Part shown: piece after piece, positions 1-13,245 of the stretch | Numbering within the stretch: the stretch's first letter is position 1 | How the letters are laid out: every line of letters begins with the position of its first letter | Source: Fodinibius salicampi | GTDB lineage: Bacteria > Bacteroidota > Rhodothermia > Balneolales > Balneolaceae | Assembly (NCBI RefSeq): GCF_039545095.1 | Contig: NZ_BAABRS010000001.1 | Span: forward strand, 372,001 to 436,000 | DNA length: 64,000 nt | Reading direction: 5' to 3' | Program-made: the position numbers and the translations under genes | The notes under the pieces: model-generated | Databases searched by the model: none | Seen by the model: the letters and a program-made list of their open reading frames with translations, nothing else | Told to the model about the DNA's origin: nothing

Positions 1-550
1 GTTCATGAATCATTACCTCTTCGCTTATTTCTTTATTTTCGTACTGCTCTTTATTTACAAATATGGTTTTCCAAAATGTGTGGGGGACTACTTCCTTATC
101 TACCAAAACCACTTTGTGACCTTTAAAAGAGGTAGCTGGATTCTTCATTGACTTAAGTTGCATGCAATAAAAATGTCGAATCATTCGAATAGACAGGATC
201 AGTGTCACAATACCGTAAACCCAAAAAATGAATGGAGTAATCCATTCAACGTATGAGGTGTGGCTTGCAGAATTTTCTTCTGTCGGATTATCCGTAACCT
301 GATGAACAGACTTAGCATTGGTGTTCTCAATTCCACCTGGAAGTATTTGTGATATTTCAGTATTGCTGCCTAAGGTTAATAAAGAGTCAGCTATTCCAAA
401 GGGCATAAATGGGACGGTCAATGAAAATAGAAGGCCGACAAGCAGATACCCGCGATTGATCTGATATATTTTTTCCCTTGCAAGAACAGCATGATAAAAC
501 AGGAGGACTAATCCCAGGCATATTGTTGAGTATATCAGGTAAGAAATCAT
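1..550 (-). CDS. BlaR1/MecR1-like M56 sensor metallopeptidase, partial
   Basis: This is an open frame that leaves the window at base 1, so only the N-terminal ~183 residues are visible. Membrane segments are seen near residues 3-20, 35-55 and 105-125. The last visible residues are VMIHE, the first half of an expected HExxH zinc motif. M56 proteins sense a signal, often cell-wall damage or a beta-lactam, and cause cleavage of a BlaI-type repressor. The start codon overlaps the stop of the blaI-like gene by 4 bases (ATGA), so the two are translationally coupled. In Bacteroidota such proteins are often fused to TonB or other domains, which cannot be judged here. The family call is good; the ligand is unknown. 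Confidence 0.85.
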   Translation of the reverse strand, partial: MISYLIYSTICLGLVLLFYHAVLAREKIYQINRGYLLVGLLFSLTVPFMPFGIADSLLTLGSNTEISQILPGGIENTNAKSVHQVTDNPTEENSASHTSYVEWITPFIFWVYGIVTLILSIRMIRHFYCMQLKSMKNPATSFKGHKVVLVDKEVVPHTFWKTIFVNKEQYENKEISEEVMIHE

Positions 551-918
551 TGATCTCTCTTTTTAAGTTCTTTGTTGATAATGTCCTGAAGCTCCTCCAG
601 TTCTTCCTCTGATAAGTTAGTTTCTTTCGTGAAAAAAGAAGCAAAGGTCGAGGGAGAATCATTAAAATATTTCTTAATCAGACTATTTATGTGCTTCGAG
701 AAGTAGTCTGACTTTTTTACCAGCGGATAGTATCTTCGTGAACGTCCCATCTGCTCATAATCGATATAGCCTTTGTCCTGCATTCTTTTCAGTAAGGTTG
801 CGACCGTACTGCTGGCTGGTTTGGGTTCGGGATATTTTTCGAGCAGGTCACTTAAGAATGCCTTCTCAAGTTCCCAGAGATACTGCATCAACTGTTCTTC
901 TGATTGCGATAGCTTCAT
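547..918 (-). CDS. BlaI/MecI/CopY family transcriptional repressor
   Basis: The protein has 123 residues, the usual length for Penicillinase_R (PF03965) repressors. The N-terminal ~75 residues form a winged helix, including the stretch SSTVATLLKRMQDKGYI that matches the recognition-helix and wing region. The acidic, helical C-terminal part is the dimerisation region. Such repressors sit on TACA-N2-TGTA operators and are inactivated when the partner M56 protease is activated. Here the partner is the gene directly downstream, overlapping by 4 bases. A matching operator lies 24 bases upstream of the start, so the pair probably represses itself. The target genes beyond the pair are not in view. 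Confidence 0.9.
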   Translation of the reverse strand: MKLSQSEEQLMQYLWELEKAFLSDLLEKYPEPKPASSTVATLLKRMQDKGYIDYEQMGRSRRYYPLVKKSDYFSKHINSLIKKYFNDSPSTFASFFTKETNLSEEELEELQDIINKELKKRDQ

Positions 919-941
919 ATTATTCTACATTATTAGAACTG

Positions 942-959
942 TTTCTACAAATGTAGAAA
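942..959. promoter_or_regulatory. BlaI-type operator palindrome
   Basis: TTTCTACA-AA-TGTAGAAA is an inverted repeat that is perfect outside its two central bases and contains the TACA-N2-TGTA core known for BlaI/MecI operators. It lies just upstream of the blaI-like start (918). An additional half site, TTCTACA, lies at 923-929. Autorepression of the blaI/blaR pair is inferred from position. Confidence 0.7.
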
Positions 960-1101
960 TAAAATCGTAAAAAATCCAAATTTTAGTTCTCAGTAATGTT
1001 TTTGTGGTACTAAAGTGATGAAGGTAGGAGGGCGAAAGACTACATATAACGACATGGTGCCCAGTATTGAACCGTCTTGTTTTTTTCGGAGACCGATTAT
1101 G

Positions 1102-2010
1102 TTACTCCCCGTGTTGATGTAAGAAGCGGGAGATGGTCGGGCCGATCTGTTTTGATTGCTTCAGCCATGGCGCATGGCCTCCTTCGACTGTATGCAGCTC
1201 GGCCGCGGGCATAATCTCTGACATCCTTTTTCCTACCTTCGGTGACCCAAAGGGGTCATTCTTTCCCCAAAAGAGCAGGGTTGGTTTATCAATCCGGGCA
1301 AGCTGTCCGGCCGTCAGCATCATTTCGGGTCGACCGCCCCGCAAACGAAGCAAGGTATTAAGCATGGAGAGAAACGTTTGGCGAAATTCCGGCAGCTGTT
1401 CGGTTTTAAGGAGAAGATCTGCTAACTCAGGTACAAGGGGATATTCTTTAACCATTTTACTCAGCTGTTCCACCTGTTTTTCTGATGGGGACTGCAGTCT
1501 AGTCAGCAATGATCCGAGGCCTTTAACCGCAAGGAGGCGCATCGGTAGGGGAGCGGAAGTATCAAGTACCAGGGCGGGGCATCCAATGTATACCAGGGCC
1601 GAGACCCTATTGGGTTGGTCCAAAATCAGCCAGCTTGTCCATAACGCACCCAAAGAATTGGCTATAAAAAAAGGAGATTCCAGCTCAAGTTCATCCAGAA
1701 CTTCGCTGAGGAAGCGAATAGCATTATCCTTAAGGTTTTCAGAGAATGTATCGGTGGTATCGGTAAGACCGAAGCCGGGCAAATCAACGGCATACAAAGA
1801 AAATTCATTGAGTTCTGCCATCAGGGGAGCCCACATAGCACCGGGCGTTCCTATACCATTAACCATAACCACAGCCGGCCCTACACCTGCAATCAGAACG
1901 TGGGCACGTCCGCCAACAGAAGGGATATCGATGAATTGTGACTCCGCTTCAATGTCATAGCGACCGAGCATCCGCTGTTGCGCATTCATGAATTTTTTCC
2001 GGCTATTCAT
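1102..2010 (-). CDS. alpha/beta hydrolase with complete catalytic triad
   Basis: The protein has 302 residues and no signal peptide. It has the alpha/beta hydrolase (Abhydrolase_1/6) layout. The nucleophile elbow is ANSLG with Ser119, the acid is Asp252 in WGKNDPFG, and the catalytic His279 is in EGGHAPW. The region around NGIGTPGAMW (residues 51-60) takes the place of the usual HG oxyanion motif. The substrate cannot be told from sequence; esterase, lipase-like and haloalkane-type enzymes share this fold. It is the last gene of a minus-strand group: TPR-LuxR regulator, second hydrolase, methyltransferase, then this gene. Gaps of 170-250 bases mean they may not form one transcript. It is the intact paralogue in the group; the hydrolase at 3045-3962 is degenerate. 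Confidence 0.85.
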   Translation of the reverse strand: MNSRKKFMNAQQRMLGRYDIEAESQFIDIPSVGGRAHVLIAGVGPAVVMVNGIGTPGAMWAPLMAELNEFSLYAVDLPGFGLTDTTDTFSENLKDNAIRFLSEVLDELELESPFFIANSLGALWTSWLILDQPNRVSALVYIGCPALVLDTSAPLPMRLLAVKGLGSLLTRLQSPSEKQVEQLSKMVKEYPLVPELADLLLKTEQLPEFRQTFLSMLNTLLRLRGGRPEMMLTAGQLARIDKPTLLFWGKNDPFGSPKVGKRMSEIMPAAELHTVEGGHAPWLKQSKQIGPTISRFLHQHGE

Positions 2011-2185
2011 AGTTGATGGTGAGTTGATGTTACATAAGCATAAGTTATAACGGTCTTAGTAATCACCTTTGAACGGTAGTTCCTTTAATTTTACTATTTC
2101 ACGGAAAGAAAAACAAAGCTGGGCAGCGATCCATTTTATCTTATATGAGGTATTAACTACTGGGAACTGATTCCTGAATAAACCA

Positions 2186-3007
2186 TCACTTCTGGGCACT
2201 TACCGTAACAATGCGCTGCTCATAGATAAAAGCATTGTCATCCTCATCTACGAACTCCTGCCACTTATTGACCACATCCTCCTCCAGTGAAGTTTTTGCC
2301 TTTTCATTCGCTTCCGCTAAAACGCCAGCCAGAGGTGTACTATAAATATATTGCCAGAGGAAATCTTTCGGGGCGGGGAGAGATAACGCCTTGTTCTTTG
2401 CTTGTATATCCACATTGCGAAATCCAGCGTTATGGATGAGCTGCCGGATATCTTCGGTATCATTGAGCGCAAATACCTGGTCTACAAAGTGTTTGGCTTC
2501 GGGACTAATGTTTCGCTCCATTGCCTCGGCCATAATGGCAAAGGGTTCCCCTGCAGGACCTGGGACGTTCAGGAGAAGACGTCCGCCGGGAACTAGAACG
2601 CGATGCATCTGCTGCAGCGCAGCCGTTCTGTTTTCCATAAACTGTAGACTTAACTGGCAAATAACCACATCAAAGGATTGATCCTCAAACGGTATTTTTT
2701 CGGCATTGGCCTCATGCCACTTTATGGGCAAATCCTTCGTAATTGATCGGGCTACCGCCAGCATTCCGGGATTAATATCCAGTCCTGTTACCGCTCCTTT
2801 ACTGCCAACTTTCTTTAAAGCCAGCCGGGCTATAATTCCGGTGCCGCAGGCGACATCCAGTACCCGTTCGCCCGCCTTGAGTTCTGCCTTTCGGATCAGA
2901 TCTTTTGCCACCGGTTCGCCGATGGTTGGGACAAAGAAACGCTCATAGTTTTGGGGTGGTTTTGAGCCAAGGTTTTCATTGTAGTGTTGTTTTATTTCTG
3001 TCTTCAT
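2186..3007 (-). CDS. class I SAM-dependent methyltransferase
   Basis: The protein has 273 residues with a clear Rossmann-type methyltransferase core. Motif I is VLDVACGTG at about residues 49-57, followed by the acidic ribose-binding residue in GLDINP (76-80) and a motif near DVVICQLSLQF. It resembles Methyltransf_11/25 proteins related to UbiE but lacks anything that fixes the acceptor. It is cytosolic, with no signal peptide. It lies between two alpha/beta hydrolases on the same strand and 37 bases from the end of the degenerate one, so those two are likely co-transcribed. A small-molecule or lipid acceptor is a guess from context only. Confidence 0.85.
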   Translation of the reverse strand: MKTEIKQHYNENLGSKPPQNYERFFVPTIGEPVAKDLIRKAELKAGERVLDVACGTGIIARLALKKVGSKGAVTGLDINPGMLAVARSITKDLPIKWHEANAEKIPFEDQSFDVVICQLSLQFMENRTAALQQMHRVLVPGGRLLLNVPGPAGEPFAIMAEAMERNISPEAKHFVDQVFALNDTEDIRQLIHNAGFRNVDIQAKNKALSLPAPKDFLWQYIYSTPLAGVLAEANEKAKTSLEEDVVNKWQEFVDEDDNAFIYEQRIVTVSAQK

Positions 3008-3044
3008 TGGTGTACTCCATTTTATAGTTAGTCCTCAACGGTTA

Positions 3045-3962
3045 TCAGGATGAGGAAGAATTGTTTATAAGATTGTGAAGTGCATTCGTAAATGCGTTAG
3101 GACGCTCCAGCTTAGGATCATCCCGGGTTTCTTCAATAACCTGCAGTGGCCATCCGAATTTTTTGCTGGCAGCTTGGGCAATTTTAAGCTTGTTCGCTTT
3201 GTCATGTCGTCCCCAAATCAGGGCCGTAGGTACATTAATTCTTTGGAGTTCTTTATCAGGAATCTTTGGGATGCCGAGGTTTTTCATCATGAATTGTAAA
3301 GCATCGCTGCGTTCTTTGTCACGAGCGCATTCAAGATTATATGCCACAAAGGGATCCCAGTATTTACCCATGCCTTGGCGCAGATTATCTACATCATACA
3401 TGCAGTGCGGGAAGAAACGGCTAAAGTTTTTCTCGGTTGGCCAGAGCATGAAGCGCATTAATCTAAAAGCAAAGCTGGGTTTTGGCCTGAACTTTCCAAG
3501 TCCAAGTGAATTGACGAGCACCAATCGACTGATCTGATTTCCATGGTTGACTGCAAAGCGGACTCCAATGGATCCGCCAAGAATGTTACCCACCAGGATA
3601 GGAGGAGAGGGGCAGGTTTGTTTGATCAGATCGCTGAGCCAGTCGAATACGAGGCCGGTATCCAGGAATCCTTTATTGACTTTGGATTCTCCGTGTCCGG
3701 GCAGGTCGGGTACGATTACCCGGTTATCCTTTATCAGTTTTGGAATGACGCGCATCCACCAGACGGACGACTCACCCGGACCATGCAGCAATATCATTGG
3801 AGATCCTTCGCCACCTATAAGTACAGCTGTTGAAACTCCGGATAAATTAAGCTGATGCTCTGTTACGGGGAGAGCTGCCGTAAGCTGTGTGCGGTTTCTA
3901 TTTGCAGAGGTCTGTTTCTCTTTTTCATGTGTGGAACGTACTGGATTCATCATAATCCCCAC
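3045..3962 (-). CDS. alpha/beta hydrolase-fold protein lacking catalytic Ser and His
   Basis: The protein has 305 residues and a convincing alpha/beta hydrolase fold: oxyanion region LLHGPGESSVWW (59-69), PDLPGHGES (85-93) and the C-terminal PKLERPNAF signature. At the nucleophile elbow the expected GNSLGG reads GNILGG, with Ile127 in place of Ser. At the expected AGH catalytic histidine the sequence reads TRD, with Asp281 where His belongs. The acid Asp254 (WGRHD) remains. The frame is otherwise intact with no stop, so it is either a pseudo-enzyme with a binding or regulatory role or a very recent loss of function. It lies between the TPR-LuxR regulator and the methyltransferase. The N-terminal 25 residues are low-complexity and may not all be translated. 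Confidence 0.8.
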   Translation of the reverse strand: MGIMMNPVRSTHEKEKQTSANRNRTQLTAALPVTEHQLNLSGVSTAVLIGGEGSPMILLHGPGESSVWWMRVIPKLIKDNRVIVPDLPGHGESKVNKGFLDTGLVFDWLSDLIKQTCPSPPILVGNILGGSIGVRFAVNHGNQISRLVLVNSLGLGKFRPKPSFAFRLMRFMLWPTEKNFSRFFPHCMYDVDNLRQGMGKYWDPFVAYNLECARDKERSDALQFMMKNLGIPKIPDKELQRINVPTALIWGRHDKANKLKIAQAASKKFGWPLQVIEETRDDPKLERPNAFTNALHNLINNSSSS

Positions 3963-4216
3963 CTTTAACTTGTGAGTAAGTAGAAGTTTTATTTACCAGA
4001 AATATAACCGGTAATAGAGGAGAGCGAATCGGAGAGAGTACCCAATTTCTCAAAAAAATAGATTTAGGTAATATTACCCATTTCCTGACACTGAACTAAA
4101 TACGCTGGCCGGGTCGTGGTTTTGGCTTTGCATATAGAAAGCTAGTGGGAAGATGAGTTATCCAGAAGGCAGGGTATCGAATACGGATACACTACACCGT
4201 TATTAAGAATCAAGCT

Positions 4217-5851
4217 TCACATCAGATCATGTTCATAGGCATAAGCAGTGGCGGCAGCGCGGGTTTCCACATTAAGCTTGCCCAGGATGTTGCTAACATG
4301 GCGGTCTACCGTCCGTTCGCTGATGTACAGCTCTTTGGCGATATCCTTATTGGTTTTGCCGGTAACAAGAATACGGAGTACTTCCAGTTCACGTGGCGTC
4401 AGTCCGTGAGTGTTTTTAGGTAACTCTTTTTTGATGAGCGAATTGACCTTGAAAAGGTCAGGCTCGGCCCCAAGTTGTTCAAATATCTCCCGGGCAGCTC
4501 TAAACTCCATAACGGCAGTGTCTTCATCTCCAATCCTGCGACAGGCAAGTCCGATAAGTACCTGTGTCCGGGCAGATTCATAAGAGGCCTCAAACTGTTT
4601 CAGCAGGGACCAGGATTGACGTAATTTTTTAAGTGCGGTCCCGGGTTTTGAGTTTTCAAGAAGAACGCTTCCCTGGGCTCGTGCAGCTATGGCCTTCAGA
4701 TAAGGAGCTCCGATCTTAGTGGTAATGTCTGAAAGCTCACTGGCTTTTTCTTTAGCGGTCTGCAATTCCTGTGAGGCAAGCATAATTTCCACATATGCAG
4801 GTAGTATTCTTGAGCGAGCCATCCGTTCCTTGGTTTCCTCTTCCACATGGTGGATTGCTGTTTGGGCAGCGTCGATATCGCCTTGAGCCAGCCTTAAAAG
4901 AGCCAGGCCGGGTTGTGGACTTCGGCCCCACTTGCTGGTATCCTGGTATGCTTTTTCCGCTTTGGGATAATGGCCCTGCAGCCGGTGGAGCTCGGCTTGC
5001 CTGTAAAAAGCTTCCCCGGTAGCGGGCGGACTTGAAATTTGTTTGAGCTGGCAAGCCCGTTGGACTTCATTCATGGCATCCGACCATCTGCCATGTAATT
5101 GCAGGATTTCAGCACGGCGCACCAGGCACTGTCCGCGATAGGGAACCAGGTCCGGCTGAGCATCACACCATCGGCTCAGGGCATCTGTCCATTCCTGGGC
5201 GCGCTGCAAATCATAAATTTTTTGGCATGTTTCGATGACGGCACAGTAAACAATTCCGGCAACGATGGGCGAGAGTTCATTGGAAATAACGTTCACCATC
5301 GCCTCGTCAAGCAGTGTTGTCCCTTCTTCTATTTTATTTTGCTGGATTAACGCTTGTCCACTGCCTAACCTGCCCAGTGTTTGAAGGTCCGGATTATTGA
5401 AACGAGTTCCGATCTTCGCAGCCTGTCTGAAAACTTTATGAGCAGCCTCACCGTTCCCTTGACGAAGTTGTTGAAGTCCACGGGGTATCAGCAGAAGCCC
5501 CTGCTCAGCGCATTCCTTTTTATGCTCTTTGATCAATCGCTCTGCCCGGGCCATCCAGCCGTTGCCCTGAGCACGTTCCCCCCGATTAAAGAGCACCATC
5601 CCCAGCCAGAACGCACTGCAGGCTGCCCGCTCAGTATCATTCTGATCCAAAAACTTTTGATGGGCCCGTGCCCATATTTCGGTACATTTTGATTCTTTTC
5701 CGATCAGGTATGCAGCTTTTGCCAAAAGCTCGAGATCTTCAGCACTAAGAACGGTTTCTTCATCCGCAGCAGACAGAGATATATATGCATCAGCCCACGC
5801 CTGCTGACGAAATGCCTGACGCCCCTGTTTAAGTGTATTGTCTTTGGCCAT
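4217..5851 (-). CDS. TPR-containing LuxR-family transcriptional regulator
   Basis: The protein has 544 residues. The first ~470 are a string of helical tetratricopeptide-like repeats. The C-terminal ~60 form a GerE/LuxR helix-turn-helix, starting at LTPRELEVLRIL and including the recognition-helix region YISERTVDRHVSNILGKL. There is no receiver, PAS or NB-ARC domain, so the TPR array is presumably the sensing or partner-binding part. It is the first gene of the minus-strand block that continues with the degenerate hydrolase (254 bases downstream), the methyltransferase and the intact hydrolase, and is the natural candidate to control them. The signal it senses is unknown. Confidence 0.85.
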   Translation of the reverse strand: MAKDNTLKQGRQAFRQQAWADAYISLSAADEETVLSAEDLELLAKAAYLIGKESKCTEIWARAHQKFLDQNDTERAACSAFWLGMVLFNRGERAQGNGWMARAERLIKEHKKECAEQGLLLIPRGLQQLRQGNGEAAHKVFRQAAKIGTRFNNPDLQTLGRLGSGQALIQQNKIEEGTTLLDEAMVNVISNELSPIVAGIVYCAVIETCQKIYDLQRAQEWTDALSRWCDAQPDLVPYRGQCLVRRAEILQLHGRWSDAMNEVQRACQLKQISSPPATGEAFYRQAELHRLQGHYPKAEKAYQDTSKWGRSPQPGLALLRLAQGDIDAAQTAIHHVEEETKERMARSRILPAYVEIMLASQELQTAKEKASELSDITTKIGAPYLKAIAARAQGSVLLENSKPGTALKKLRQSWSLLKQFEASYESARTQVLIGLACRRIGDEDTAVMEFRAAREIFEQLGAEPDLFKVNSLIKKELPKNTHGLTPRELEVLRILVTGKTNKDIAKELYISERTVDRHVSNILGKLNVETRAAATAYAYEHDLM

Positions 5852-6171
5852 GTGGAATTCCTTTTAAAATAAAAGATCCTCCATCGCTATTAGAATACGG
5901 GAAAAAGTTTAAATATTGAAAAGGAAATCACTTTTGTGTTGGTGAGCCAGGGGGGATAGGCTTTAAACACCTGCGGAACGCCACTGTGTGGTTCTGCTCT
6001 GCGGAATCCACAAGGGCAGGTGCCAATGTGTTGAAATTGTTTACAAAGGAAAGGTTGACTAATAAAAAAGCGGGCAAAAATTGGAATGGTTTTGCTGCCT
6101 ATTGGTGGAGAATTAGCCAGCCGGGGATTGATATTTTCCTTTTTGAAGGGGGTAGGTGGCTGAATTAAATA
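5852..6171. other. 320-base intergenic stretch, possible stem-loop
   Basis: There is no convincing gene. A 60-codon plus-strand frame (5986-6168) has no recognisable content. CACCTGC (5968-5974) and GCAGGTG (6016-6022) can pair around an inner GCCAC/GTGGT hairpin, and CTGCGGAA occurs twice (5971-5978 and 5999-6006). This may be a small structured RNA or a repeat remnant, but nothing decides it. Confidence 0.3.
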
Positions 6172-6705
6172 TTAGTTTCTTACTACTAACACGTTTGTAA
6201 ATTGGTCATAGAGTGTTTGTTTTTTTGAACTTAACAAAAGAGTCAGCAGATAGATACCAACCAATATCCAAACAAGAATAAAACCGATTAGGATTATTGG
6301 ACTGGGCTCTTGGTTGCTATCACTCATTTGCCAAATGCAAGTATGTGCCAGTTCCCATGGAATGAATTTTAACGCTGTTCGGCCCAAAGCTCGTATCCGA
6401 CTCAACCTTTCCCCGTTATTGTGAACCACTTTTATTGCTTGCCAGCGCTTTCCCCATGTCGCCTGATGAGATGAGGATTCTGAGATTGTGAAATAAAGAG
6501 TGACAGGTAACGTAATCAAAACAAATCCAGATAACTGACCTGATAAAGGATTACCGAATAAAGGCTGCAATATTCTGTGATTAACCGATTGGATGAGAAT
6601 ACTTATGGCAACCAAAAAAGCAATATAAAGAGAGATTACAAGGTAATCAGCAGAAAATGCCTTTACTCGAATCCATAAACCTGCATATGACTGTGACAAT
6701 TTCAA
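6172..6705 (-). CDS. RDD family membrane protein
   Basis: The protein has 177 residues. It shows the RDD-domain pattern: an arginine and aspartate in the first membrane segment (YAGLWIRVKAFSADYLV), a second segment near residues 57-75, the conserved loop TWGKRWQAIKVV, and a final segment followed by KKQTLYDQFTNVLVV. The role of RDD proteins is mostly unknown; some act in ion or solute transport. The assigned start is TTG at 6705. A TATCTTTG promoter-like -7 box overlaps it (6703-6710), so initiation may instead be at the TTG two codons further in. It stands alone, with long gaps on both sides. Confidence 0.8.
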   Translation of the reverse strand: MKLSQSYAGLWIRVKAFSADYLVISLYIAFLVAISILIQSVNHRILQPLFGNPLSGQLSGFVLITLPVTLYFTISESSSHQATWGKRWQAIKVVHNNGERLSRIRALGRTALKFIPWELAHTCIWQMSDSNQEPSPIILIGFILVWILVGIYLLTLLLSSKKQTLYDQFTNVLVVRN

Positions 6706-7074
6706 AGATATTTTTTAATGTTTAAGCCATCTATCTACTTGGTGAATAAGGTGCGCAAGAATGAATGTTGAGTTGATAAATAATAAATGAAAAGCTTAAA
6801 AGCTAGATATTTGCAAGATCTGGTGCCTGTCCACCATAGTCTTCTTGATCTACAAAGATTTAGCGTATTAGATGGCGCAGGAGGAGGTGTGTCCCCTTAA
6901 ATGCTATTTAGATTTTGGTAATACCATAGGGGGGAGGGACTGATTCAAGCGTTGGCTTTCCTTTCTTTTATTTAAATAATGCAAAAGGGCTACAAGCATA
7001 GCATTATTTTTTTACCTTTAGAAAAATTGATCACAGCCAATAGAATCTAAATTAAATTACGGGTAGATATAGAT
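6706..7074. other. 369-base intergenic region upstream of the amidohydrolase
   Basis: This is the space between the start of the minus-strand RDD gene and the plus-strand amidohydrolase, and must hold promoters for both. I see no gene or RNA. The notable elements are the hairpin with T-run at 6974-7012 and the promoter-like TACCTTTA at 7013-7020, listed separately. Confidence 0.5.
6974..7012 (+). terminator. terminator-like hairpin just before the amidohydrolase promoter box
   Basis: AAATAATGC (6974-6982) and GCATTATTT (7001-7009) form a 9-base stem with an 18-base loop, followed by more T residues to 7013. It ends directly at a TACCTTTA box (7013-7020). No plus-strand gene lies upstream, so it could end a short unannotated transcript or keep read-through away from the promoter. 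Confidence 0.4.
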
Positions 7075-10000
7075 ATGAAGAAGCTTTTAGTACTGTTGCT
7101 GGTCCTGTTCTGGGGTGCCGGAGTACAGGCTCAGAACGGGGAGGATGCGGAATGGGATGTCAATAATCCCGGGGAACCCCATGAGGAGATCGAGTTTTCT
7201 ACAACCGAGGGTACCTGGATGAATTTGGATGTAAGTCCGGATGGAGATCAGGTGGTCTTCGATCTGCTGGGCGACATCTATATTATGCCTATGGAGGGAG
7301 GCGAAGCGACCGTATTGCGTGATAACCTGGCCTATGAGATACAGCCGCGCTTTAGTCCCGACGGAGAAAAGGTATCTTTTACCAGTGATGCCGGGGGCGG
7401 GGATAATATTTGGGTAATGGACACAGATGGATCCAATGCCCGACAGGTAACGGACGAGGATTTTCGCTTGCTGAACAATGCCGTTTGGACGCCCGACGGG
7501 GAATACCTTATCGCCCGAAAGCATTATACGTCCACCCGCTCGTTGGGAGCCGGGGAGATCTGGATGTATCATCATTCCGGCGGATCCGGAATACAGCTGG
7601 TAGAAAAGGCCAATGAACAGCAGGATATCGGTCAGCCGTTTCTTTCACCCGACGGACGCTATGTCTATTACAGTCAGAGCGTGTATCCCGGGGGATATTT
7701 CCAGTACAACAAAGACCCGAACAGCCAGATTTATGTCATTAACCGCTATGATCGGGAAACCGGGGAGACGAAGCGTATTACCGGCGGGGCTGGAGGAGCG
7801 ATCAGCCCGACGTTATCTCCGGATGGAGAGAAAATGGCCTTTATCAAGCGGGTGCGGACGAAAAGTGTACTGTATGTCCGCGATCTGGAGTCCGGTATTG
7901 AGCGGCCCGTCTATGATCAGTTGAGCAAAGACCATCAGGAGGCATGGGCAATTTTTGGTCCCTATTCCAATATCGACTGGACGCCCGACAGTGAGCAGTT
8001 GGTGTTCTGGGCAGAGGGAAAAATCCGAAAGTTGAATGTGGAAAATCAGGAAGCAGAAATTATTCCTTTTGAGGCTGATGTACGTCAGCAAATAGCGGAA
8101 GCCCTGGAATTTGAACAGAATCCCGCTCCCGAAACCTTTACGGCCAAAGCCATACGACATGCTGTAACGGCTCCCGATGGCGATTATATGGTCTTTAATG
8201 CCGCGGGTTATCTATGGACAAAAGAGCTTCCCAATGGCACGCCGGAACGGCTAACGGACGGGAATGCCTTTGAATTTGAGCCTTCATTCTCTCCCGATGG
8301 GAATTCACTGGTCTATGTAACGTGGAGCGATACGGCATTGGGGAAAATAAAGGTGCTGGATATGAACAATTCCAATGCGGAGCCCCAAACGCTCACCGAA
8401 CGCAAAGGCATTTACCGGCAGCCTTCTTTTTCACCTGACGGAGAAACCATCGTATACCGGCGCGAAGATGGTAATAATCAGCAGGGGCATGCCTATACGA
8501 ACGAGCCGGGAATTTATACCATGCCGGCTTCGGGTGGGGAAGGGACTCTGGTAACGGAAGACGGCTCGAATCCCCGGTTTAGTGCCAACGGAGAGCGCAT
8601 CTTTTATCTGGGAGGAAGCTATTTGGATAACTCATACGAAAGTGTCGACCTGTCCGGGAATGACAAGCGCGTGCACTTTACTTCCAAATATGGAAACAAT
8701 TTCGTTCCCAGTCCCGATAACCAGTGGGTGGCATTCAACCACCTTTTTAAGGTCTATATTGCCCCTATGCCCCGGGCCGGGAAAGAGATTGAGCTAAGCG
8801 CCGATACCAAAGCCATTCCGGTAACCCACGTTGCGGAAGATGCCGGAATTAATCTCCACTGGAGTAATGACGGTCAGCAGCTGCACTGGACACTGGGAGA
8901 AGAATATTTTTCGGTAGGGGTGCAGGAAGCTTTTGACTTCCTGGAAGGGGGAGCAACGGATAAGGAACTCCCCCTGGATACGAATGAGGGACTTGATATC
9001 GGACTGGAGATGGAAGCAGACCGTCCCGATGGAATCATGGCGCTGACCAATGCCCGTATCATCACCATGGATGGCGACAAGGTGATAGAGCAGGGAACCG
9101 TGGTTATTCGTAACAGTCGCATTGAAGAAGTGGGCGCTTCCGGTGAGGTGGACCTCCCTTCAAATGCTGAAGTTATGGATGTGGATGGCAAAACAATAAT
9201 GCCGGGTATTGTGGATGTTCATGCCCACATCGGCAACTTCCGGGAGGGATTGAGTCCCCAGCAGCAGTGGGAGTATTTTGCAAACCTCGCTTATGGCGTT
9301 ACTACAGCACACGATCCTTCCTCCAATACCGAAATGATTTTCTCTCATTCCGAAGCAGTAAAGGCCGGTCATATGGTGGGTCCGCGTATCTTTTCTACGG
9401 GACGTATTTTATACGGAGCCGAAGCAGAATTTAAGGCGGAGATTGATAATTACGAGGATGCCAAGTCTGCGCTGGAGCGGACCAAAGCGTTTGGGGCTTT
9501 TTCCGTGAAAAGCTACAACCAGCCCCGGCGCGATCAGCGACAGCAGGTAATTAAGGCGGCCCGGGAACTGGAATTATTGGTATTGCCGGAAGGGGGATCG
9601 ACCTTTACGCACAATATGAGCATGATTATGGATGGTCATACGGGAATAGAGCATAATATCCCGGTCTACCCAGTGTATAAGGATGTTCATGAGCTATGGA
9701 GCGCCAGTGGTACGGATTACACTCCCACGCTGGTTGTCAATTATGGCAGTGTAAGCGGGGAATACTATTGGTATCAGAACACCAAGGTCTGGGAGAAAGA
9801 GCGGCTGCTTAACTTTACGCCCCGCAGTATTGTCGATTCCCGATCGCGTCACCGTAAGATGATTCCGCAGGAAGAGTACGAAAACGGACACATATTGAGT
9901 GCCGCAACCGCCAAAAACCTGCAGCGTAACGGCGTAAATGTGAATCTCGGTTCACACGGACAACTTCAGGGACTTGGAGCCCACTGGGAACTCTGGATGA

Positions 10001-10365
10001 TGCACCAGGGAGGAATGACCGAGCTGGAAGCCCTACAGGTTGCCACTATTAACGGAGCTCGTTACCTGGGGATGGATCATGAGCTGGGATCTATTGAAGA
10101 AGGAAAGCTCGCAGATCTTATTATCATTGATGGAAATCCGCTGGAGAATATTCGCGATACGGAAAAGGTAACCCACACGATGGTTAATGGAAGGCTGTAT
10201 GATGCCGCTACTATGAATGAAACAGGAACGCGAGAAAAAGAGCGGCTGCCGTTTTGGTGGGAGCAGGAAGGGTATCCCGCTAATTTTGATTGGCATGCCC
10301 AAACGGATGCTCACGGTCATATACAGTGCAGCTGTGGATATCAGCCGGCTTATCTAATGGAATAG
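7075..10365 (+). CDS. exported PD40/TolB-propeller amidohydrolase
   Basis: The protein has 1096 residues with a signal peptide ending near VQAQ (residue 20). Residues ~40-640 hold repeated PD40/TolB beta-propeller units, recognisable by recurring SPDG(E/N) turns. Residues ~650-1070 are a metal-dependent amidohydrolase domain with the metal-binding pair HAH (His716, His718) after IMPGIVDV, a further histidine in GIEHNIPVY, and a GSHGQ loop. The C-terminal ADLIIIDGNPL is typical of the amidohydrolase small beta-sandwich. The fusion is common among secreted proteins of Bacteroidota and probably acts on peptides or cyclic amides in the periplasm; the substrate is unknown. The propeller may gate the active site, as in S9 peptidases. 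Confidence 0.9.
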   Translation: MKKLLVLLLVLFWGAGVQAQNGEDAEWDVNNPGEPHEEIEFSTTEGTWMNLDVSPDGDQVVFDLLGDIYIMPMEGGEATVLRDNLAYEIQPRFSPDGEKVSFTSDAGGGDNIWVMDTDGSNARQVTDEDFRLLNNAVWTPDGEYLIARKHYTSTRSLGAGEIWMYHHSGGSGIQLVEKANEQQDIGQPFLSPDGRYVYYSQSVYPGGYFQYNKDPNSQIYVINRYDRETGETKRITGGAGGAISPTLSPDGEKMAFIKRVRTKSVLYVRDLESGIERPVYDQLSKDHQEAWAIFGPYSNIDWTPDSEQLVFWAEGKIRKLNVENQEAEIIPFEADVRQQIAEALEFEQNPAPETFTAKAIRHAVTAPDGDYMVFNAAGYLWTKELPNGTPERLTDGNAFEFEPSFSPDGNSLVYVTWSDTALGKIKVLDMNNSNAEPQTLTERKGIYRQPSFSPDGETIVYRREDGNNQQGHAYTNEPGIYTMPASGGEGTLVTEDGSNPRFSANGERIFYLGGSYLDNSYESVDLSGNDKRVHFTSKYGNNFVPSPDNQWVAFNHLFKVYIAPMPRAGKEIELSADTKAIPVTHVAEDAGINLHWSNDGQQLHWTLGEEYFSVGVQEAFDFLEGGATDKELPLDTNEGLDIGLEMEADRPDGIMALTNARIITMDGDKVIEQGTVVIRNSRIEEVGASGEVDLPSNAEVMDVDGKTIMPGIVDVHAHIGNFREGLSPQQQWEYFANLAYGVTTAHDPSSNTEMIFSHSEAVKAGHMVGPRIFSTGRILYGAEAEFKAEIDNYEDAKSALERTKAFGAFSVKSYNQPRRDQRQQVIKAARELELLVLPEGGSTFTHNMSMIMDGHTGIEHNIPVYPVYKDVHELWSASGTDYTPTLVVNYGSVSGEYYWYQNTKVWEKERLLNFTPRSIVDSRSRHRKMIPQEEYENGHILSAATAKNLQRNGVNVNLGSHGQLQGLGAHWELWMMHQGGMTELEALQVATINGARYLGMDHELGSIEEGKLADLIIIDGNPLENIRDTEKVTHTMVNGRLYDAATMNETGTREKERLPFWWEQEGYPANFDWHAQTDAHGHIQCSCGYQPAYLME

Positions 10366-10395
10366 AAAGGGAAATTAATGTGCAGTACATATAAT

Positions 10396-10572
10396 CCGTT
10401 TAGTGGTTGGCTTTTAATGGTAACTCTATGTCATCCCGGACTTGATCCGAGATCTCGCAGGGGTAGTCTACGTTGATCTTCTTTCCGTTCTTGTATCAAC
10501 GTTACTATAATTATTATGAGATCCTGAAACTAGTTCAGGATGACATAATAGCTGTTTTTAGTCACTAAACGG
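10396..10572. repeat. nested palindromic repeat (REP/BIME-like element)
   Basis: Two 28-base arms, 10429-10456 and 10518-10545, are imperfect inverted copies, both starting or ending with TGTCATCC. Each arm is itself a small palindrome (CGGA-CTTGA-TCCG and TCCTGAA-ACTAG-TTCAGGA). Inside is ACGTTGAT...ATCAACGT. The outer ends are CCGTTTAGTG (10396-10405) and CACTAAACGG (10563-10572). The arm sequence resembles the TGTCATCCTGAAC-type repeats scattered through many bacterial genomes. This is probably a dispersed non-coding element lying between the amidohydrolase and fur. Confidence 0.75.
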
Positions 10573-10590
10573 GAAACAGACTATATATAA

Positions 10591-10620
10591 ATAAAAAGGC
10601 CCTGTGCTAATCACAGGGCC
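10591..10620 (-). terminator. intrinsic terminator of the fur-like gene
   Basis: GGCCCTGTG-CTAAT-CACAGGGCC (598-606 / 612-620 of the 10 kb block) is a perfect 9-base stem. Read on the minus strand it is followed by TTTTTAT, and it lies 48 bases beyond the stop of the Fur-family gene. Confidence 0.85.
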
Positions 10621-10667
10621 ATTGACATTAAAAAAAATGTTATCAGTGGGAGGTAAGGAAAACCTAA

Positions 10668-11168
10668 TTATGCAGCGGAAGGCTCTTTCTCATCCGCTTC
10701 CTGACGCTCTTTGCAGGCTTCCTGATCTTTGCAAACTCCAAAAAAGTGCAGAGAGTGACCGGTGATATTAACTTCGTGGATTTTTTCCATCATATCCTTT
10801 ATTTCCTGGATACGCGGATCACAGAATTCCAGGACCATACCACACTCTTTGCAAATTATATGATCGTGTTGCTGGTAAGCGTATGCCCGTTCGTAATGGT
10901 ATTGGTTTTTGCCAAATTGCTGTCGCTGTACCAATCCGCATTCAACGAGTAGATCGAGCGTGTTATAGACCGTAGCGCGCGAGACTCGTGTGCCCCCTTC
11001 CTTCATATTGAAAAAGATATCATCAGCATCAAAATGACCATCGGCACGGTAAATTTCTTCCAGTACCATAAAGCGCTCGGGAGTCTGCCGCTGATTATGC
11101 TCCTTTAAATAAGAGCTGAAAATTTCTTTTACGAGGTCAATTGTTTCTTCTTTCGCCGGATGTGCCAT
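10668..11168 (-). CDS. Fur-family metal-dependent repressor
   Basis: The protein has 166 residues. It has an N-terminal winged helix with TVYNTLDLLVECGLV, the metal-binding motif HDHIICKECG, and a C-terminal CKDQEAC cysteine pair. These fit Fur/PerR/Zur proteins, which use iron or zinc as co-repressor or sense peroxide. The CxxC structural zinc site (CKEC) is present. Whether it is Fur or PerR cannot be settled. A short charged tail (residues ~150-166) extends beyond the usual end. It is divergent from the acyl-CoA synthetase across 193 bases that contain an inverted repeat which could be its own operator. It is followed by its own terminator. Confidence 0.9.
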   Translation of the reverse strand: MAHPAKEETIDLVKEIFSSYLKEHNQRQTPERFMVLEEIYRADGHFDADDIFFNMKEGGTRVSRATVYNTLDLLVECGLVQRQQFGKNQYHYERAYAYQQHDHIICKECGMVLEFCDPRIQEIKDMMEKIHEVNITGHSLHFFGVCKDQEACKERQEADEKEPSAA

Positions 11169-11233
11169 GCTATCATTTTTCTTTTAATATAAGAAATACA
11201 AGTACTGAATAAAATAGGATCCTTTCAACAATT

Positions 11234-11257
11234 CTTACTTTATTACATAATAGTAAG
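11234..11257. promoter_or_regulatory. inverted repeat between fur and acyl-CoA synthetase, possible operator
   Basis: CTTACT (11234-11239) and AGTAAG (11252-11257) flank ATTA-CA-TAAT. The AT-rich, roughly symmetric layout is like Fur/PerR boxes, and it sits in the divergent promoter region of the Fur-family gene. Its function is inferred from position only. Confidence 0.35.
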
Positions 11258-11361
11258 TGCTGAAGTTTCATTTCAAAATGTTATATTCATTTATCTATCC
11301 TAAGATCAAGCATAGCATGGGGTATTGCGGCTAATTAATTAGTAATAAAATTTATAATTAT

Positions 11362-13245
11362 ATGCCTACAGTAGTAGCGTTTGAAACACTAACTGAGCTT
11401 TTTCAGAACCTTGCTAATAAATATCGCGGGACCGATAAAACAGCCTTTGCGCGTAAACCGGCCAGCGATGCTCCCTATGAAACCATAAACTGGGACCAGG
11501 TTTCCGAAGATGTTCATCATTTGGCCGCCTTTTTAATTGAGAAGGGTGTTGAATCCGGCGACCGTGTGGCCATTTTAAGTGAAAACAGGTATGAATGGGC
11601 CTTGGTGGATTTAGCCCTGCAGCTTATTGGTGGCATTAATGTATCTCTCTATACTACGCTTCCAGCCGGACAGTGTGAGTATATTCTGCAGGATTCAGAA
11701 GCAAAACTCTTTTTTGTCTCTACCGGAATACAGCTTAAAAAAGCGCATGAGATTTTTGACAGATGCGATGATATCCAGCGGGTTATTGCATTTGATGAAC
11801 CTAATATTGAACGCTTTTTGGATGAGCCATATGTCAACTTGTTCGAGGATGCTATGATAGAAGGGGCCAAAAGATTCCCTGAAGTTGAGGAGGAGATAAA
11901 GCAACGGAGCAAATCGATCGCCCCGGAAGATTTGGCTACGCTTATTTATACATCCGGAACGACAGGAAAGCCTAAAGGGGTGATGCTAACTCATCGAAAT
12001 ATTGTAAGTAATATTAAGGCAGCTCACCAGCTTATCAATATCAATCAGGATGATCGGTGTCTTTCCTTTTTACCGCTTTGCCACTCTTTTGAGCGAACGG
12101 CAGGCTATTATGCCATGCTGGCCGGAGGCGCGGAAATCTATTATGCAGAAAGCGTGGATACGGTGGCTAAAAATATGACGGAAGCCAGTCCTACAATCGT
12201 TATGAGTGTACCCCGCCTGTTTGAAAAGATATACAATCTCGTAACAAAAAGTGTTGAGGAGGGATCTGCCGTTAAAAAGAAGATATTTGAATGGGCACAG
12301 TCCGTGGGCCAAAAATACGCTGACGGGGAACGCGGACTGATAACGATGCAGAAGAAACTGGCGGATAAGCTGGTATTTGATAAACTGAAAGAACGTACCG
12401 GTGGACGTATACGATTTTTCGTTTCAGGCGGGGCAGCTTTACCGGCGGAGATAGGTACGTTCTTTATGGGGGCTGGCCTGAATATTATTGAGGGTTATGG
12501 ACTTACAGAAACATCTCCTATTATGTGTTGTAATACCCTTGGAAATGAAATAATGGGAACCGTCGGACGGGTACTTCCGGGTGTAACGGTAGCAATTCAG
12601 CGGTTGGAAGACAGTGAGATTGTGACCGCGCTAAGTGGTGAGGATTATCCGACTTCCATAGATACGGAACAGGGAGAGATTTTATGTAAGGGGCCCAATG
12701 TAATGAAGGGATATTGGAAAAATGACGAGGCCACACATGAAATGATAGACAATGAAGGATATCTGCATACCGGAGATGTGGGTAAATTTGTAGACGGGAA
12801 GCTTCAAATTACCGATCGTATCAAGCATATGATTGTAAATGCCGGAGGGAAGAATATCTACCCGGGACCAATAGAAGATCTCTTTAAAACAAGTAAGTGG
12901 ATTGATCAACTGGTGGTGGTAGGAGAGCGCAAACCGTATATGGCTGCGCTGATTGTACCTGATTTTGAAGCTCTTGAGGATTACGCCGAAGATGAGAATA
13001 TGACTTATGGAAGTATAAGTGAGCTAATTAATGAAGAGAGAGTACAAAAGATTTACCGAAATGAGATTCACAGCTATTCTAAGGAATTGGCTTCACACGA
13101 GAAAATCCGGGATTTTAGGTTGGTTTCCAATGAGTTTACGGTGGAAAGTGGTGAATTGACGCCCACCTTAAAAGTAAAACGACGCATTGTAGAGGATAAG
13201 TACGGCCATTTGATAGAGGATATTTTTAGCAATTCCAAGGTCTGA
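11362..13245 (+). CDS. long-chain acyl-CoA synthetase (AMP-forming)
   Basis: The protein has 627 residues and belongs to the ANL adenylating superfamily. The ATP/AMP signature IYTSGTTGKPKGVMLTH lies near residues 195-211, the motif GYGLTETSP near 378, and GYLHTGDVG/TDRIKHMI in the C-terminal lid. The length and the KHMIVNAGGKNIYP segment match bacterial long-chain (FadD/FAA1-like) enzymes, which make acyl-CoA from free fatty acid, ATP and CoA for beta-oxidation or phospholipid synthesis. It is followed 33 bases later by a small membrane protein on the same strand. The short N-terminus agrees with the family start. Confidence 0.93.
   Translation: MPTVVAFETLTELFQNLANKYRGTDKTAFARKPASDAPYETINWDQVSEDVHHLAAFLIEKGVESGDRVAILSENRYEWALVDLALQLIGGINVSLYTTLPAGQCEYILQDSEAKLFFVSTGIQLKKAHEIFDRCDDIQRVIAFDEPNIERFLDEPYVNLFEDAMIEGAKRFPEVEEEIKQRSKSIAPEDLATLIYTSGTTGKPKGVMLTHRNIVSNIKAAHQLININQDDRCLSFLPLCHSFERTAGYYAMLAGGAEIYYAESVDTVAKNMTEASPTIVMSVPRLFEKIYNLVTKSVEEGSAVKKKIFEWAQSVGQKYADGERGLITMQKKLADKLVFDKLKERTGGRIRFFVSGGAALPAEIGTFFMGAGLNIIEGYGLTETSPIMCCNTLGNEIMGTVGRVLPGVTVAIQRLEDSEIVTALSGEDYPTSIDTEQGEILCKGPNVMKGYWKNDEATHEMIDNEGYLHTGDVGKFVDGKLQITDRIKHMIVNAGGKNIYPGPIEDLFKTSKWIDQLVVVGERKPYMAALIVPDFEALEDYAEDENMTYGSISELINEERVQKIYRNEIHSYSKELASHEKIRDFRLVSNEFTVESGELTPTLKVKRRIVEDKYGHLIEDIFSNSKV

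Follow-up and report, generated by a model that had tools for sequence, protein, structure and literature searches.

A conserved alpha/beta-hydrolase-fold family lacking the catalytic Ser and His in a putative regulatory cassette of bacteria and haloarchaea

The 64 000-nucleotide stretch of the Fodinibius salicampi genome analysed here (the window) carries on its minus strand a gene, referred to as PSEUDO (3045..3962), for an alpha/beta-hydrolase-fold protein without a catalytic triad. The initial annotation proposed that it might encode a binding or regulatory pseudo-enzyme, as with KAI2/D14-like receptors, or be an early pseudogene. Members of its family without the catalytic Ser and His are maintained in salt-loving bacteria, archaea and one rhizobium.

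Catalytic residues and reading frame of PSEUDO

On the minus strand, the 305 codons from 3962 to 3045 form an uninterrupted frame. Its elbow, PPILVGNILGGSIGVRFA, reads GNILGG, with Ile127 (codon ATT) at the nucleophile position, and the His position, EETRDDPKLERP, is occupied by Asp281 (codon GAT), the protein having TRDDPKLERP where AGHxPxLE is usual, while the acid is kept as Asp254 (codon GAC, in WGRHDK). When the family profile was aligned with PDB entries, HsaD was matched along most of the domain, with residue 127 at its nucleophile (GNSLGG in 5jz9, GNALGG in 2wud) and residue 281 at its catalytic His of GHW. The two replacements, the retained acid and the intact frame first reported for this gene were all borne out. 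Residue numbers follow that report, with the first codon at 3962; the true start is probably ATG 3953 rather than GTG 3962, as AAAGGTGG lies just upstream, and in that case all residue numbers would drop by 3.

PSEUDO matched the Pfam profiles Abhydrolase_1 (PF00561, E 2.3e-15, above the cut-off) and Abhydrolase_6, and the Abhydrolase profile, the HG loop, the G-x-x-x-G elbow and the acid place it in the alpha/beta-hydrolase fold superfamily. It falls outside the serine hydrolases at two positions: the nucleophile is Ile, Leu or Ala, with no Ser, Cys or Asp, and the His after strand 8 is Asp, in 9/9 intact proteins of the family. This residue content shows that PSEUDO cannot be a Ser-His-Asp hydrolase. 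Of the 14 Abhydrolase_1/_6 loci of the genome (two elbows being read by eye), all others had Ser or Cys at the elbow, indicating that the change does not reflect chance or generic divergence.

The best PDB matches were the meta-cleavage-product C-C hydrolases HsaD and BphD (E 7e-24), which share with PSEUDO the fold, the elbow VGNxLGG-AVRFA, the acid position and the cap region, but differ in the nucleophile Ser and the catalytic His, both of which are replaced in every PSEUDO member. With the NCBIfam HsaD equivalog model, PSEUDO scored 64 bits against a cut-off of 400. The existence of HsaD entries with a Ser-to-Ala elbow (GNALGG, 2wud and relatives) indicates that the hydrolase fold tolerates a Ser-less elbow. 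An AlphaFold2 model of PSEUDO, with only two sequences as input, had a pLDDT of 35 and was set aside. The intact paralogue reported two genes away is real (1102..2010, minus strand; Ser119/Asp252/His279), but it is a very distant homologue and not a sister; being a neighbour in the window only, and not found at other PSEUDO loci, it was rejected as part of a conserved module.

Orthologues, selection and broken copies

PSEUDO was searched for in all 92 available genomes of the family and 128 genomes of the order, together with a sample of 394 genomes from the wider phylum; outside Balneolota the search covered plasmid records, so that the distribution given there is a minimum. Orthologues occurred in six further Balneolota genomes, Fodinibius salsisoli among them, with one copy broken, and on plasmids of Haloterrigena turkmenica, Halorussus halophilus and Sinorhizobium meliloti LMB1. 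The eight intact orthologues, five from other Balneolota genomes, two from haloarchaeal plasmids and one from a Sinorhizobium megaplasmid, had 46-68% identity. A scan of viral contigs for full-length relatives found none.

Among the nine intact proteins, 80 of the 284 gap-free alignment columns were invariant, including HGPGE, LGG, W69, W202, Y208, R252, D254, Glu286, Cys187 and Glu64. Positions 281-283 read DDP in all nine, Asp281 thus being invariant, and position 127 read I, I, I, L, L, A, L, L, I (window included). Position 126 (N/H/Q) and His253 (H/D/E) varied, which leaves no conserved His that could stand in for the catalytic one. The family-wide absence of Ser and His refers to these nine sequences, which formed one clade (99/98) at the tip of a long branch, separated from hydrolases that have their nucleophile; the exact sister of the clade is unsure because some outgroup rows were long-branched. 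The simplest reading is that Ser and His would have been lost once, on this branch, and that the family moved between bacteria and archaea afterwards. Pairwise dN/dS was mostly 0.08-0.23 where dS was computable (0.36 in one pair), that is, mostly about 0.1-0.2, and since dS was saturated in most pairs these figures say only that selection is purifying. We looked for Ser and His in sister species, and none of the eight intact orthologues had either, which rules out a recent loss in one strain or a sequencing error.

Two loci held damaged copies beside an intact methyltransferase: in Balneolota genome G036 PSEUDO (L020:1713-2177) was broken by an internal deletion and a stop, and in Salinigranum rubrum (L041:4031-4234) only its first part was present. 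As the G036 genome is incomplete and fragmented, an assembly fault is possible there. Damaged PSEUDO beside intact methyltransferase at two loci suggests that PSEUDO and the methyltransferase are not obligate partners, and the function of PSEUDO appears dispensable in some hosts. The regulator and its predicted operator, described below, were retained in G036 despite the broken gene.

Public annotation of haloarchaeal members as 'alpha/beta hydrolase' is misleading. For the Halorussus orthologue (L034:9001-9882) it also starts well inside the gene, at 9163, the first part being overlaid by an annotated reverse gene that is probably spurious.

Neighbouring genes and a predicted operator

In the window, a class I SAM-dependent methyltransferase (Methyltransf_11/UbiE-like; 2186..3007, minus strand) lies 37 nt after PSEUDO, and such a gene adjoined PSEUDO in seven of the nine loci. 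The methyltransferase followed PSEUDO in the window, in G011, G001 and G022 and at the G036 locus with its broken copy; in Sinorhizobium the two were fused in one open frame of 587 aa, with both domains recognised by Pfam, and two Balneolota genomes (G007 and G014) had no methyltransferase beside PSEUDO. Two separate methyltransferase lineages (100/100) were obtained, one of Balneolota and one of haloarchaea and Sinorhizobium, implying that PSEUDO was linked to a methyltransferase at least twice or that the methyltransferase was exchanged. An obligate complex of the two proteins is weakened by the loci keeping only one of them. A defence role from PADLOC was not accepted, the hits being a superfamily-level methyltransferase match and regulator HTH matches only.

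A TPR-LuxR transcriptional regulator of about 545 residues was encoded directly upstream of PSEUDO at all eight bacterial loci (seven in Balneolota, the broken one included, and one in Sinorhizobium), with 43-91% identity between loci. The window copy (4217..5851, minus strand) has a GerE HTH at residues 484-538 and a MalT-like TPR region below the Pfam cut-off; a domain search for an ATPase domain in this 544-aa protein returned TPR and GerE matches only. Across the 92 family genomes, the close form of the regulator was confined to PSEUDO genomes, barring a second copy in G022, which is likewise a genome with PSEUDO. That second copy (L075:4670-6331) is followed by genes for an unclassified membrane-like protein of 226 aa and for a methyltransferase that shares 56% identity with its haloarchaeal counterpart, and we read this locus as a further cross-domain exchange of cassette parts. 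In the haloarchaea the TPR-LuxR protein was replaced by a regulator of the HVO_A0261/FilR1 type, in the order regulator, methyltransferase, PSEUDO, and neither a LuxR protein at the PSEUDO locus nor the palindrome described below was found on the haloarchaeal plasmids. In Rhodococcus opacus, a single 880-aa frame (L037:2984-5626) encodes a Ser/Thr protein kinase domain, recognised by eye, followed by a TPR-LuxR protein.

Alignment of the eight bacterial loci from the regulator stop to PSEUDO revealed a near-perfect palindrome, TGGGTAATATTACCCA. The window copy (TGGGTAATATTACCTA; 4065..4080, minus strand) has one departure, and conservation across loci marks it as the proposed TPR-LuxR operator. 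A second element, AAATTGGGTAYTCTCTCCGATTCGC, followed the palindrome by 14-16 nt and was shortened in Sinorhizobium; in the window it lies 16 nt after the palindrome (AAATTGGGTACTCTCTCCGATTCGC; 4024..4048, minus strand) and consists of a third half-site and CCGATTCGC. The pattern TGGGT-N6-ACCYA was present within 300 nt of the regulator stop in 11 of the 13 TPR-LuxR loci (the eight PSEUDO loci, the second G022 copy, Phyllobacterium and Rhodococcus), and dinucleotide shuffles matched it at most once in 2000 per locus. The composite of both elements, with the proper 16-nt spacing and core, occurred across the 92 family genomes only at PSEUDO loci, the remaining listed matches differing in core and spacing. 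Most simply, the palindrome would be the operator of a local, dedicated regulator, and the TPR-LuxR protein very probably binds it. As expected of a target gene, PSEUDO is separated from the regulator by this predicted operator at all eight bacterial loci. A function of the palindrome as terminator of the LuxR gene was rejected: a T-rich stretch lies behind it in the window but not at other loci, most of which have no T run, and the second element is conserved further on. No Rfam RNA families were found in positions 1-12000 of the window.

The exact form TGGGT-N6-ACCCA also follows TPR-LuxR genes in Phyllobacterium (L040:4701-4716), in Rhodococcus (L037:5816-5831) and at the second G022 locus (L075:6542-6557). 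Behind these sites lie, respectively, a SnoaL-like gene and an FAD-dependent enzyme (both recognised by eye), an HHE/SRPBCC-like gene, and the membrane-like protein with its methyltransferase. It is possible that TGGGT-N6-ACCCA is a general operator of this regulator family, for which the cassette would thus predict a DNA site; a described target was not found in the open-access literature. Because other TPR-LuxR sites precede other genes, PSEUDO is better regarded as a product under the regulator's control than as one of its fixed subunits.

Possible roles of PSEUDO

We give about an even chance to the reading that PSEUDO binds a ligand without hydrolysing it and is the output of a dedicated regulatory cassette, which we take to be horizontally mobile. 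With good confidence, the TPR-LuxR protein would bind TGGGT-N6-ACCCA together with the third half-site and control a transcript starting with PSEUDO and including the methyltransferase where present. PSEUDO itself, with Ser exchanged for Ile, Leu or Ala and His for an invariant Asp, cannot act as a Ser-His-Asp hydrolase. The oxyanion loop HGPGE, the elbow glycines, Asp254 and the invariant aromatic cap residues would form a pocket, whose retention as a ligand site we consider somewhat probable, and this pocket would hold, uncleaved, a small molecule from the same pathway as the SAM methyltransferase. That PSEUDO sequesters this compound or presents it for methylation falls slightly short of an even chance. 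The model is weakened by the two Balneolota loci without a methyltransferase, by the intact methyltransferases beside a damaged PSEUDO in G036 and Salinigranum, and by the haloarchaeal plasmids, which have neither the LuxR protein at the locus nor the palindrome. As a class, the originally proposed binding or regulatory pseudo-enzyme is supported by the conserved, non-catalytic residues and by the ties to a regulator, a predicted operator and a methyltransferase.

Alpha/beta-hydrolase pseudoenzymes are already known as a kind, of which PSEUDO is a variant. NDRG proteins and other members of that kind have the same fold without a working triad; they are eukaryotic, belong to another subfamily and have no operator or methyltransferase cassette. 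The known conserved pseudoenzymes of the hydrolase fold come mainly from plants and animals. Open-access full texts held no description of the PSEUDO family or cassette, subscription journals being outside the scope of that search. In its way of working, PSEUDO may be nearest to the gibberellin receptor GID1, a hydrolase-fold protein that lost its catalytic His and became ligand-binding (PMC3531792), but GID1 keeps its Ser, is eukaryotic and belongs to the HSL family. KAI2, DAD2 and RsbQ have an intact Ser-His-Asp triad (PMC3548789). RsbQ, KAI2 and D14 are signalling proteins of the same fold that keep the triad, whereas PSEUDO lacks it and has different neighbours; a strict KAI2/D14-type identity is thereby ruled out, and the original comparison was inexact, GID1 being the nearer analogue. 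We tentatively raise, as an unlikely possibility, that PSEUDO is a prokaryotic, GID1-like non-catalytic receptor in a cassette mobile between bacteria and archaea, recognising a small molecule made or modified by the paired methyltransferase and either reporting to the dedicated regulator or being produced under it. Here an entire clade, passed between bacteria and archaea, would on the simplest reading have lost both catalytic residues a single time; it has maintained the substitutions, within a small cassette that includes a regulator and a predicted operator. Such a cassette would allow a direct test of the conversion of a hydrolase pocket into a binding site.

An alternative is that PSEUDO is a ligand-sensing regulatory partner: once a signal occupies its inactive pocket, the protein would engage the TPR region of the LuxR regulator and close a feedback loop, working like RsbQ, KAI2 or GID1, or like Aes on MalT. 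The regulator is adjacent at every bacterial PSEUDO locus, also where the methyltransferase is missing, GID1 is a precedent for a receptor with a lost catalytic His, and Aes, a hydrolase-fold protein, binds and inhibits the LuxR-type MalT (PMC10427625). The MalT-Aes pair resembles the PSEUDO locus in combining a LuxR-type regulator with TPR-like repeats and a linked hydrolase-fold protein, but Aes is an active esterase that acts on the MalT ATPase module (residue T38; PMC10427625), and the 544-aa regulator gave no match to a STAND ATPase module. Moreover, the haloarchaea use another regulator family, so a specific TPR contact would not be universal; PSEUDO resembles a target gene of the regulator, the same palindrome elsewhere preceding unrelated genes (SnoaL-like, membrane protein); and G036 keeps the regulator and predicted operator although its PSEUDO is broken. 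We consider such a sensor unlikely.

Slightly less likely still is an enzyme with other chemistry, in which Asp254, Asp281, Glu64 and the oxyanion loop would support a non-hydrolytic reaction (isomerisation, cyclisation, a lyase reaction or cofactor-free oxygenation) on the product or substrate of the methyltransferase. Asp281-Asp282, Glu64, Arg252, Cys187 and Tyr208 are the same in all bacterial and archaeal members, and the neighbours are small-molecule enzymes, with SnoaL-like and FAD-dependent enzymes at other TPR-LuxR loci; against this, no nucleophile or general-base His is conserved, given the variation at position 126 and His253. The broken G036 and truncated Salinigranum copies show that the gene can be lost, but an early pseudogene, a recent single-strain loss or a sequencing error is already refuted for the family and has next to no probability left, because all eight intact orthologues, spanning two domains, share the replacements, with open frames, low dN/dS and a conserved predicted operator.

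Just beyond the cassette, positions 7075-10365 of the window encode a 1096-residue protein in which an amidohydrolase domain was recognised by eye after a series of TolB-like propeller repeats.
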